NCBI RefSeq assembly: GCF_004404055.1 | Contig: NZ_SOHK01000007.1 | Coordinates: 124,001 to 188,000, forward strand | Origin: Cryobacterium ruanii | GTDB taxonomy: Bacteria; Actinomycetota; Actinomycetes; Actinomycetales; Microbacteriaceae | Reading direction: 5' to 3' | DNA length: 64,000 bases | In this document: positions 18,251-22,074 of the stretch, piece by piece | How the letters are laid out: each line of letters begins with the position of its first letter | How positions within the stretch are numbered: the first letter of the stretch is position 1 | The notes under the pieces: model-generated | Database searches by the model: none | Seen by the model: only the letters and a program-made list of their open reading frames with translations | What the model was told of the DNA's origin: nothing | Translations under genes and position numbers: made by a program

Positions 18251-18403
18251 TGAACTTAGGACCCGTTCTGGTCCGGGGCATGCCGAATTCAATTTGGTGT
18301 GGACATCCCGGGACTTGACATGGGTCCAAGTTCTGCCCAAAAACGCTTCTGGCTCCGTTCTGGCTCCCAAAAGCAGGTAAGACTCCGCATGAGAGGTGTT
18401 CGA

Positions 18404-19672
18404 ATGGTAACCACCGCCAAGACCGAGGTGACCGACGAGTCTGTCACGACTCCCGCAGTACCGGCGGTCAAAAAGATTGTCACAAAGGCCACAGCCGCTA
18501 AAGCTGCCGCAGCGACGAAGAAGTCCGCAGCTGCTGTCGAGAAGCCGGCCCCGAAGAAACGTGTCACGAAGGCAAAGGTCGTCAAGAAAGATGACGACGC
18601 CGACGTGGACGCCGGTTCTGAAGCCGACGAGGACGACTTGGACGACGACAGCACCAAGCGCACGACCTCGACGGAACCGCTCCCCAGCGGAGCACTCGTG
18701 CTCTCGCTCGTCGACGACGACGACGAGGTTCCGGTCTACTCCAGCGCCATCACCGGCGCCACGGCCGACCCGGTCAAGGATTACCTTAAACAGATCGGCA
18801 AGGTCGCACTGCTGAATGCGGCCGAAGAGGTCGAACTGGCGATGCGCATCGAGGCCGGCCTGTTCGCCGAAGACAAGCTCTCGGAGATGACCGACGTCGA
18901 GAAGAAGAATCCCCTTGGCCGTGAGCTGCAGTGGGTCGCGAAAGACGGTGCCAGGGCCAAAAGTCACCTCCTCGGTGCAAACCTGCGCCTCGTCGTGTCT
19001 CTCGCCAAGCGGTACACCGGCCGTGGAATGCAGTTCCTCGACTTGATTCAGGAGGGTAACCTCGGCCTCATTCGTGCCGTCGAAAAGTTCGACTACACGA
19101 AGGGCTTTAAGTTCAGCACGTACGCCACCTGGTGGATTCGCCAAGCCATCACCCGAGCCATGGCCGATCAGGCCCGCACCATTCGTATTCCCGTGCATAT
19201 GGTCGAGGTCATCAACAAGCTCGCCCGCGTGCAGCGCCAGATGCTGCAGGATCTCGGTCGCGAACCCACGCCGGAAGAACTCAGCCGCGAACTCGACATG
19301 ACGCCAGAGAAGGTCGTCGAAGTACAGAAGTACGGGCGCGAACCGATCTCGCTGCACACGCCGCTCGGTGAAGACGGTGACAGCGAATTCGGCGACCTCA
19401 TTGAAGACACGGAAGCCGTCGTCCCGGCGGATGCGGTGGGCTTCACCATGCTGCAGAAGCAGTTGGAAAGCCTGCTCGACTCGCTCTCGGAGCGGGAAGC
19501 CGGCGTGATTCGCATGCGCTTTGGCCTCGGTGACGGTATGCCGAAAACACTGGACCAGATCGGAGACACCTTCGGCGTAACGCGCGAGCGCATCCGCCAG
19601 ATTGAGTCCAAGACGATGGCCAAGCTTCGTCACCCGTCCCGGTCGCAGTCCCTGCGCGACTACCTCGAGTAA
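18404..19672 (+). CDS. sigA: Primary sigma factor (RpoD/SigA)
   Basis: Housekeeping sigma-70 of 422 residues. The N-terminus is Lys/Ala-rich, then strongly acidic (region 1.1-like, about residues 25-90). Region 1.2 begins near [16 protein letters not shown]; region 2 shows [26 protein letters not shown] and [13 protein letters not shown]; region 3 has [13 protein letters not shown]; region 4 has [25 protein letters not shown] place the start at ATG 18404 because GAGAGG lies seven bases ahead; in-frame ATGs at 18389 and 18299 are less likely. murT begins two bases after the stop. RbpA, a partner of primary sigma factors, is encoded at 54.1 kb. Confidence 0.97.
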
Positions 19673-19674
19673 AC

Positions 19675-20994
19675 GTGGCAGTGACAGAACCCGCTCGGCT
19701 TTCGAAGCGCGGTTTCGTGACTTCCGTCCGGTACGCTCCGGCGATTCTCCTCGGGCGGGCCGTTCGGGTACTGGCGCGTTGGCGTAAGCCCGGAGGTGGC
19801 TCTGCCATCCCCGGGGTTGTGGTCAACCGCATCGCCCCTGGCTTTCTCGCAACGACCCTCAACGGGTTTCCCCTCGGGCTCGTCATCGTCACGGGATCCA
19901 GCGGTAAATCTACGACGACCAAGATGCTCGTCGCCGTGTTGCGCGCTCACGGCCTGACCGTGTTTACCAACCAGTCGACGGCGAACATCAGCCAGGGGCT
20001 GACCAGCGCTCTGCTGGAACGGGTCAGCTTGTCCGGGCAGATCGCTGGTGATGTTGCTGTGCTCGAAATGGACGAAGGACATGGCGCGTTCATCGCAGGG
20101 TCGCTGACTCCGCGAGTCGTCGCCCTCACCAACGTCATGGTCGACCAGATCGACAGGTTCCACGATTCGGAAATGGTCGCCGTCCTGCTCGGAAAGATCG
20201 CCGCGCGCGCGACGGAGACGGTAGTACTCAACGCCGATGACCGTTACCTCACCGATCTCGGCTCCAGCCTTGACAGCACGGTGGGTGTCGCCCGCTACGG
20301 AGTGACCGCCGAAGTGCTGGGCCAGTATCCCCGCGGACTCGGTTACGCCGAAACCGCAGCGAATAGGCTGCCGACCGGCACCGGCCTTCAGCTCACCCGC
20401 GTGGTCGGCCGTGACGCCACGGTGGAATTTGGCGCGGACAGCCACAGCATTCGGCTGCCGGCGCGCGGCATCCACTATGCCGTCGACGCTTTGACCGCGT
20501 TGAGTACGGCCCAGGCGACTCTCGGCGACGGCTTCGATCCCACCATCGCCTGTGCGGCGCTGTCGGCTATGCCGGCCGTTTTCGGTCGCGGTGAGGTCGT
20601 CACAGTTGGCGGTAAGACCATCGAGTTCGTGCTGGTCCAAAACCCGTCGAGTTTCCAGCTCAACGTCGACAGCCTGGAAGACGGCACGGAGCAAATCCTG
20701 GTGATCATCGGCTCCGACGTTCGAGACCCGTCTTACTTCTGGCCGGTGGACACCTCCCGCCTGGACCACGTACTCATCGCCTCGGGCCTGAAGGCGCACG
20801 ATATCGCCCTGCAGCTCGCCTACGACAACGTTCGAGTGGATTGCATCGAACCCGATGTGCCGACGGCCCTCGACGCATTCCTGGCCTTGCCAGATCCCAC
20901 GTCCGGGGTGAAGACCATCATCTTCTCGGCCGACGGCATGCGTCGCACTCGCGCACATCTCCGCCTCGTCTCCAACGCTGAGGATCCGGTATGA
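19675..20994 (+). CDS. murT: MurT-like Mur ligase (lipid II isoglutaminyl synthase family), atypical
   Basis: Protein of 439 residues with Mur ligase central and DUF1727 C-terminal domains. In the canonical MurT/GatD enzyme, MurT activates the alpha-carboxyl of lipid II D-Glu with ATP and transfers ammonia supplied by GatD. Here the P-loop GSSGKSTTT and VLEMDEGH are present, and NVMVDQIDRF corresponds to the usual RDQLDRY region. The four-cysteine zinc ribbon expected in the middle domain is missing: the segment GQYPRGLGYAETAANR has none, and only two isolated cysteines occur in the whole protein. The C-terminal region normally reading DGRDVSWIWD is GSDVRDPSYFWPVD. It overlaps gatD by four bases (ATGA). 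Family membership is clear; the reaction is in doubt. Confidence 0.88.
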   Translation: MAVTEPARLSKRGFVTSVRYAPAILLGRAVRVLARWRKPGGGSAIPGVVVNRIAPGFLATTLNGFPLGLVIVTGSSGKSTTTKMLVAVLRAHGLTVFTNQSTANISQGLTSALLERVSLSGQIAGDVAVLEMDEGHGAFIAGSLTPRVVALTNVMVDQIDRFHDSEMVAVLLGKIAARATETVVLNADDRYLTDLGSSLDSTVGVARYGVTAEVLGQYPRGLGYAETAANRLPTGTGLQLTRVVGRDATVEFGADSHSIRLPARGIHYAVDALTALSTAQATLGDGFDPTIACAALSAMPAVFGRGEVVTVGGKTIEFVLVQNPSSFQLNVDSLEDGTEQILVIIGSDVRDPSYFWPVDTSRLDHVLIASGLKAHDIALQLAYDNVRVDCIEPDVPTALDAFLALPDPTSGVKTIIFSADGMRRTRAHLRLVSNAEDPV

Positions 20995-21749
20995 CCGCCA
21001 CTTTACCGGGGCGGCCGTTCACAGTCATCTCGCTGCTGCCCCGCCTGCTCAATACGAACGGAGATGCCGGCAACGCCCGGGTACTCGCCCAGCGCATTCG
21101 CTGGAGCGGTCACGACGCCCAAGTCGTCGACGTGCACTCCCGCGCGGACCTTCCCGAGCAGGTCGACGCCGTATCCATCGGTTCAGGAACGGACGCTGCG
21201 CTCATCCCGGCCCGGGATGCGCTGCGCACCCTGGTCGAGGAATTGCGCGTCTGGTCCAACTCCGGCGTTCCCATCCTGGCGGTTGGTACCGGCTGGGAAT
21301 TGTTGAGCTGGGGCATCGACCTTTCCGACGGCACCGTGCTCGAGGGTCTCGGCCTCGTTGCCGGCCAGGCCGTGCCTCGAAAGACCCGCGCTACCGACGA
21401 CATCATCATTATCTCGAAATATGGCCGGCTTATCGGCTTCGAGAACCACGCGCGTGACTATGTCGGCGCCGAAGCCAGCCCGCTCGGACGGGTGCTCTAT
21501 GGCAGTGGAAACGGTACGCGATCATCCGGCCCGCAGATCGAGGGGCTGATCATGGGGGAGGTGTTTTGCACGCACCTGCACGGACCCGTGCTCGCGCGCA
21601 ATCCCGCGCTCGCGGATCACCTGCTGCGGGCGGCGTTCAGCCGCCATGGACTCGAGTATGCTCGCGGCGTCCGGGCGGACAGCGCCGATGCGACAGCACA
21701 GGCCGCGCGCAACGAAGTCGCCGTTCGCTTGGGCCAGAACGCCGAATAG
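20991..21749 (+). CDS. gatD: GatD-like class I glutamine amidotransferase lacking the catalytic cysteine
   Basis: Protein of 252 residues, the partner of MurT. GatD normally hydrolyses glutamine with a Cys-His pair and feeds ammonia to MurT. The N-terminus ISLLPRLLNTNGDAGNARVL and the His region THLHGPVLARNPALADHLL (His about residue 197) are typical. At the nucleophile elbow, where the family has a Cys-Gly-Gly-Tyr-Gln type motif, this protein reads AVGTGWELLS, with Gly at about residue 99. The frame is intact and neighbouring residues also differ, so this is not a single sequencing error. Glutaminase activity is therefore unlikely. It is translationally coupled to murT and ends at a strong hairpin. 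Confidence 0.88.
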   Translation: MTATLPGRPFTVISLLPRLLNTNGDAGNARVLAQRIRWSGHDAQVVDVHSRADLPEQVDAVSIGSGTDAALIPARDALRTLVEELRVWSNSGVPILAVGTGWELLSWGIDLSDGTVLEGLGLVAGQAVPRKTRATDDIIIISKYGRLIGFENHARDYVGAEASPLGRVLYGSGNGTRSSGPQIEGLIMGEVFCTHLHGPVLARNPALADHLLRAAFSRHGLEYARGVRADSADATAQAARNEVAVRLGQNAE

Positions 21750-21822: not shown

Positions 21823-22074
21823 CTAGGAGCGCTGGTCTTCCAGCAGTCGACTTGACTCGTCGTGCCAGCTCTCGGCGATGCTCGCGAGCTTTTCTTGGTG
21901 CTTTCGACCGTGGTGGGCGCAGAACAACAGTTCGCTGTTCTTGACGACAACACGAATGTAGGCCTGGGCGCCGCAAGCGTCGCAGCGGTCGGCTGCGGTG
22001 AGCTGGTGGGGGGCGCCCTGCTTGTTTCCAGCACCGTTGTCTACAGCACCATTTTCGGTGGCGATCTGGGACAT
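21823..22074 (-). CDS. DUF7455-type small zinc-ribbon-like protein
   Basis: Protein of 83 residues. A conserved core reads LTAADRCDACGAQAYIRVVV then ELLFCAHHGRKHQEKL, giving a CxxC plus CxxH set that could bind zinc. This small family is common in actinobacteria close to the primary sigma factor gene; its function is not known. ATG 22074 (MSQIATENG) follows GAGGAGGAGAAT, a strong ribosome-binding site, which decides the start. It converges on gatD and is divergent from parE. Confidence 0.85.
   Translation of the reverse strand: MSQIATENGAVDNGAGNKQGAPHQLTAADRCDACGAQAYIRVVVKNSELLFCAHHGRKHQEKLASIAESWHDESSRLLEDQRS

Follow-up and report, generated by a model that had tools for sequence, protein, structure and literature searches.

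The locus

The window, the whole stretch of 64,000 nucleotides of Cryobacterium ruanii DNA analysed here, carries a murT-like and a gatD-like gene immediately after sigA. The features of this locus are given below; S. aureus MurT numbering was counted from the alignment with the solved S. aureus relative.

18299..19672, plus strand: sigA, primary sigma factor gene with sigma-70 domains; fixed landmark upstream of the Cys-less murT/gatD slot
19675..20994, plus strand: murT-like ligase gene (type II), 439 aa, with Mur_ligase_M and MurT_C domains (Pfam)
19894..19914, plus strand: P-loop of MurT, GSSGKST in place of the canonical GTNGKT
20704..20742, plus strand: MurT segment IIGSDVRDPSYFW, in which the D349 equivalent is kept (D351) and the DNAAD motif is short of three residues
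20991..21749, plus strand: gatD-like gene, 252 aa, glutaminase-dead by sequence; GATase_3 domain, S. aureus GatD at E 4e-23, structure model
21057..21059, plus strand: Asn23, replacing the channel-plug Tyr of GatD (from the alignment; role of the Tyr as reported in PMC6085368)
21276..21305, plus strand: GatD elbow LAVGTGWELL, with Gly99 (codon 21285-21287) replacing the nucleophile Cys
21579..21581, plus strand: His197 of GatD, equivalent of the catalytic His189

The gatD start overlaps the last codons of the murT-like ORF, and the closest solved relatives of the pair are the MurT/GatD complexes of S. aureus, S. pyogenes and S. pneumoniae. In the window genome, MurT_C and GatD were each matched once; a second gatD had been named as a possible refutation in the preliminary description of this locus. 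Between gatD and a parE-like gene lies a gene for a small Cys-rich protein (RCDACGAQAYIRV...LLFCAHHGRKH; window 21826-22074, minus strand); a similar protein is found near parE in L295.

Loss of the glutaminase residues in GatD

The preliminary description had proposed a GatD that lacks the catalytic cysteine and keeps the partner histidine. Alignment to S. aureus GatD bears this out: C94 aligns with Gly99, and the catalytic His of the HGP motif is present as His197. Arg133 is also kept, and with His197 it indicates that the GatD pocket is not wholly erased. The channel-plug Tyr is absent, its place being taken by Asn23; in S. pneumoniae GatD, the Tyr of the stretch Asn28-Thr29-Tyr30 is described as plugging the ammonia channel (PMC6085368). 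A cysteine displaced to another position of the elbow, which had been set as a refuting test, occurs in none of the rows of a 28-row alignment.

The same losses mark the whole lineage of the window pair, here called type II. Both the Cys and the channel Tyr are missing in 89 of 89 type II GatD rows and the His in 21 of the 89, and the elbow residue varies among G, A, S, T and N. The Cys is absent at 80/90 Microbacteriaceae loci read, at 0/21 loci from other families of the order and at 0/22 loci from other orders of the phylum. The ORFs are intact in many genera with gatD conserved next to murT, dN/dS values of 0.10-0.25 indicate purifying selection on both genes, and the predicted fold of GatD is of high confidence. 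The loss of the Cys in the window GatD is thus no accident; a point error, which the preliminary description had already discounted, and a pseudogene are both ruled out by the relatives that share the loss, the dN/dS values and the fold.

The ligase half

The MurT-like protein belongs to the Mur ligase superfamily by its GSSGKSTT P-loop, its E131/D133/E134 residues, matches to PF08245 and PF08353 above cut-off, and its fold; K78, E131, D133, E134 and D351 are invariant among 22 aligned type II MurTs. Asp349 of the inter-subunit triad is present as D351. We considered and rejected a loss of this Asp with the MurT deletion, because the D349 equivalent is kept and the shortening is confined to the DNAAD part. 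With only two Cys, a Cys4 zinc ribbon is impossible in the window MurT. The pair differs from the lipid II isoglutaminyl synthase of S. aureus, S. pneumoniae and S. pyogenes in lacking the Cys nucleophile and the channel Tyr, in a MurT whose DNAAD motif is three residues shorter and which has two Cys, and in its location after sigA. Against the NCBIfam equivalog cut-offs it scores 87.8 of 800 bits for MurT and 102.1 of 450 bits for GatD, a weak test in either case, canonical actinobacterial pairs having stood outside the scan.

The importance of these residues has been reported for the S. aureus complex, in which MurT D349N severely reduces or abolishes activity and GatD C94S abolishes it (PMC6113224). 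The GatD C94G enzyme, which has the substitution seen at Gly99 of the window GatD, is reported to lose glutamine-dependent amidation, with NH3-dependent activity unaffected at pH 8.5 and zero use of NH3 at pH 7.5; in the same report MurT alone was inactive with any donor tried and neither subunit was active singly (PMC3266927). S. aureus MurT is also stated there, as data not shown, to have replaced MurE in vitro to give UDP-MurNAc-Ala-Glu-Lys, implying that the fold can accept an amino acid.

Two Cys-less lineages

A second Cys-less group, comprising types III and IV, became apparent alongside type II. In a MurT tree of 93 rows, built by a quick method with SH-aLRT support only and leaving out L246, type II forms a single branch (support 100) within the Cys-containing actinobacterial MurTs, and types III and IV group together (support 92) within those Bacillota MurTs whose GatD has the Cys. 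Two losses of the Cys are enough to explain this tree, one in Microbacteriaceae and one in Bacillota. The type III copies of Microbacteriaceae form one group nested among Bacillota rows, a placement which suggests that these pairs were acquired by transfer.

Type III was found in Clostridia MAGs and in Vescimonas fastidiosa, whose Cys-less, His-less pair (L271:5986-8039) includes a GatD annotated as a hypothetical protein. In the order of Merdibacter (148 genomes searched), 23 of 76 MurT-bearing genomes were type III by MurT score; the Cys was missing in 22 of the 23 GatDs read and the HGP His in all 23. Canonical-scoring loci of that order kept both residues (6/6), and no genome there had both canonical and type III MurT by score. 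One Bacillota type III GatD (L246:731-1474) retains the elbow Cys (FLVCGNG) and has lost the HGP His. The type III pairs of Clostridia and Erysipelotrichales resemble the window pair in having a dead glutaminase beside an intact-looking MurT; they differ in their separate origin in the tree, a zinc-ribbon MurT, a channel Tyr or Phe that is kept in the Bacillota rows, and the missing His. A type III pair on a 38% GC contig inside the family MAG G005 (L135) is probably contamination; it was set aside as family evidence, yet retained as a row in two alignments and the tree. Several fragmented family MAGs hold both Cys-containing and Cys-less pairs, and in G163 (10 contigs) the co-occurrence of the two looks real.

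The chromosomal slot after sigA

Among the type II loci, 83 of 89 have sigA upstream, and in all but one of these 83 it is the immediate neighbour of MurT (82 loci); of the six loci without it, four have less than 230 bases of flank and two (L041, L089) are real misses. It is likewise upstream of, and directly adjoining, MurT at 9/9 Microbacteriaceae type III loci. sigA is present in the flank of 0/32 Cys-containing loci (12 from Microbacteriaceae, 20 from other families), and in a further set it was found upstream in 17/18 Cys-less versus 0/10 Cys-containing loci, giving 0/42 Cys-containing loci for the sets combined; Fisher values for these counts are nominal, since the genomes are related, and are not true probabilities.

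The type II MurT profile matched 241 of 299 Microbacteriaceae genomes at E<=1e-18; the family genomes were drawn by a tool and then partly chosen by hand, so that this and the following fractions are not family-wide rates. Forty low- or nil-scoring genomes were searched again, and 26 were without MurT, their matches (E>=1e-16) being no better than those of other Mur ligases. Directly after sigA, 19 of the 26 have a gene for a distant relative of CofE, the F420-0:glutamyl ligase (L272-L283, L285, L287-L290, L292, L297), and a CofE-like gene was present somewhere in 20 of the 26. The assignment rests on PF01996 (E 3e-12 to 4e-15 in three copies scanned); the scanned copies pass the Pfam cut-off and fall below the CofE equivalog cut-off. 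CofE is unrelated to MurT, which it resembles in its nucleotide-driven amide ligase chemistry. In six of the 26 genomes both the pair and a CofE-like gene (E<=1e-10) are missing; if these organisms are of group B, the step must fall to some other enzyme.

A CofE profile was then run against 80 chosen Microbacteriaceae genomes, whose types were assigned from the MurT score, except that G013 was reassigned to type II. Strong matches (E<=1e-100) occurred in 4/10 MurT-less genomes versus 0/51 type II, 0/9 type III and 0/8 canonical-only genomes. More distant copies were found in both type IV genomes and in one type II genome, G147. At the type IV locus of G123 the CofE-like gene (L306:1489-2205) stands side by side with the Cys-less MurT/GatD pair; in type IV it lies between sigA and the pair (695 bases). 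Nine genera (g7, g9, g58, g59, g75, g79, g82, g84, g85) include both species with Cys-less MurT/GatD and species with the CofE-like gene. No CofE-like gene was matched on plasmids. Three of the canonical-only genomes were viewed (G014, G016, G070), and in each a parE-like gene comes next after sigA. Types II and III and the CofE-like ligase thus replace one another in the slot after sigA, and type IV shares the slot with the CofE-like gene.

Neighbouring genes also give the slot links to the cell wall. An ATPgrasp_ST-like protein (PF14397 in the three scanned) adjoins the CofE-like gene in 15 of the 26 MurT-less genomes. Among the 80 genomes, a strong gene of this ATP-grasp family occurs in 11, weak matches being seen in G014 and G051; its neighbour is the CofE-like gene in G001, G215 and G020, it was not found in G058, and it stands beside the pair in 6/9 type III and 2/51 type II genomes. 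MurJ, the lipid II flippase, adjoins two CofE-like genes, and an alanine-racemase-like gene adjoins in G058 and G036 (Pfam was run on the G058 copy only). In G020 a diaminobutyrate--2-oxoglutarate transaminase gene (ectB-type, TIGR02407, above cut-off; L298:2558-3883) lies between sigA and the CofE-like gene.

Wall chemistry and proposed function

Taxonomists have long used group-B peptidoglycan as a marker; its bridge is carried on the alpha-carboxyl of D-Glu. The peptidoglycan of Rhodoluna lacicola is reported to be of type B2beta and to contain D-Dab, with Gly-D-Glu and D-Ala-D-Dab as peptides (PMC4156110). G010, putatively this species, is the one family genome of known wall type; its single MurT match at E<=1e-30 lies downstream of sigA, and its GatD is about 30 residues shorter than that of the window, with Ala replacing the Cys (MAVATGHE) and HGP kept. 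In Clavibacter michiganensis D-Dab is described as bridging D-Glu to D-Ala, amidated D-Glu muropeptides being reported as well (PMC9603630), and according to a review, some bacteria at times carry Gly or D-Ser on the alpha-carboxylate of D-Glu (PMC11555704). In the open-licence literature we found no paper that identifies the enzyme attaching the bridge residue to D-Glu, and none on MurT/GatD with Microbacteriaceae, on MurT with type B peptidoglycan or pseudoenzyme, or on isoglutaminyl synthase with Erysipelothrix.

We propose, at somewhat better than an even chance, that MurT and the glutaminase-dead GatD join the group-B bridge amino acid to D-Glu. Because the S. aureus C94G enzyme loses glutamine use, the natural Gly99 enzyme should, by analogy, be unable to use glutamine, and activation of D-Glu by its ligase half is expected to be intact. 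The Cys loss is common to many Microbacteriaceae and the activating half is kept; therefore the pair probably attaches a cross-linking amino acid instead of forming a simple amide. MurT would phosphorylate the alpha-carboxyl of D-Glu in the lipid-linked wall precursor, as in amidation, and the amine of an amino acid would attack the activated D-Glu instead of ammonia. The likely donor would be the first group-B bridge residue, such as D-diaminobutyrate, D-ornithine or glycine. GatD may be retained because MurT needs it structurally, and its altered pocket may admit or position the donor; both the identity of the donor and the need for GatD are conjecture, as is the suggestion that the ATP-grasp protein perhaps adds a second bridge residue.

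Linking an amino acid, through its amine, to the D-Glu carboxyl is proposed as the simplest task that MurT with a dead GatD and the CofE-like replacement could have in common. A wider reading, on which we would lay even odds, makes the slot after sigA in Microbacteriaceae the place of a group-B bridge enzyme acting on D-Glu, with the MurT/dead-GatD lineages and the CofE-like ligase interchangeable and at times sharing the same ATP-grasp partner, and with GatD turned twice independently into the partner subunit of an amino acid ligase. Several observations sit uneasily with the proposal: eight of the 80 genomes carry the canonical Cys pair only and G163 carries both kinds; six MurT-less genomes have neither candidate, and G147 combines type II with a distant CofE-like copy; the type III GatD of L246 still has its elbow Cys; amidated D-Glu is reported in Clavibacter michiganensis; and the DNAAD motif of S. 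aureus, likened to the lysine site of MurE, is the very stretch shortened in the window MurT.

The preliminary description had likewise suggested a retooled pair. Its core survives and gains strength: the pair is retained, the glutaminase is dead, the family is one of group B, and the pair probably joins some other amine to D-Glu. The accompanying prediction, that Gly would replace the Cys throughout the group-B genera and nowhere else, does not hold in detail, since the replacement residue varies, 58 of the 299 genomes have no MurT match at E<=1e-18, the eight canonical-only genomes exist, and a second Cys-less lineage is found in Bacillota. If the proposal is true, a glutamine amidotransferase complex can, once its glutaminase is lost, exchange ammonia for an amino acid as donor; the gene pair, its place on the chromosome and the enzymes that replace it are in any case now available as candidates for the group-B bridge step.

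Other explanations were weighed against this one. Loss of catalytic residues is what decay would be expected to produce, but a decaying or mis-sequenced functionless gene is hardly credible, being already contradicted by the intact ORFs, selection, fold and murT adjacency described above. Hydrolysis of glutamine by another GatD residue, or by a separate glutaminase feeding MurT, would fit the retention of His197 and Arg133; it is very improbable given that the variable elbow residue offers no conserved replacement nucleophile and that the channel Tyr is missing from all 89 type II rows and the His from 21 of them. The slot enzymes might instead act on another carboxylate, in a cofactor or a secondary polymer, the link to peptidoglycan being incidental. 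CofE proper acts on coenzyme F420, and the window proteins fall below the MurT and GatD equivalog cut-offs; we nevertheless judge this improbable, as MurJ, a racemase and a diaminobutyrate transaminase are among the neighbours and the Cys loss is absent from the other Actinomycetota loci read.

That the complex still amidates D-Glu to isoglutamine with free ammonia rather than glutamine is unlikely, though it deserves some weight. The C94G enzyme of S. aureus retains activity with NH3 at pH 8.5, and Clavibacter, with its amidated muropeptides, is a group-B genus. At pH 7.5, however, this C94G enzyme made no use of NH3, amidation would block the carboxyl needed for group-B cross-links, and the loss of the glutaminase would bring no evident benefit; nor does free ammonia explain the CofE-like replacement with its ATP-grasp neighbour.

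Two further loci of the family deserve mention. A plasmid of Leifsonia shinshuensis INR9 (L268:6004-8953) bears a canonical MurT/GatD pair with the Cys present and, after it, an M15 peptidase gene predicted to be vanY-like (38% identity); an amidating pair can belong to the accessory genes of Microbacteriaceae. The single-contig genome G015 (L345; 927,303 bases), putatively Tropheryma whipplei Twist, has a Cys-less pair after sigA, with Ser at the elbow.
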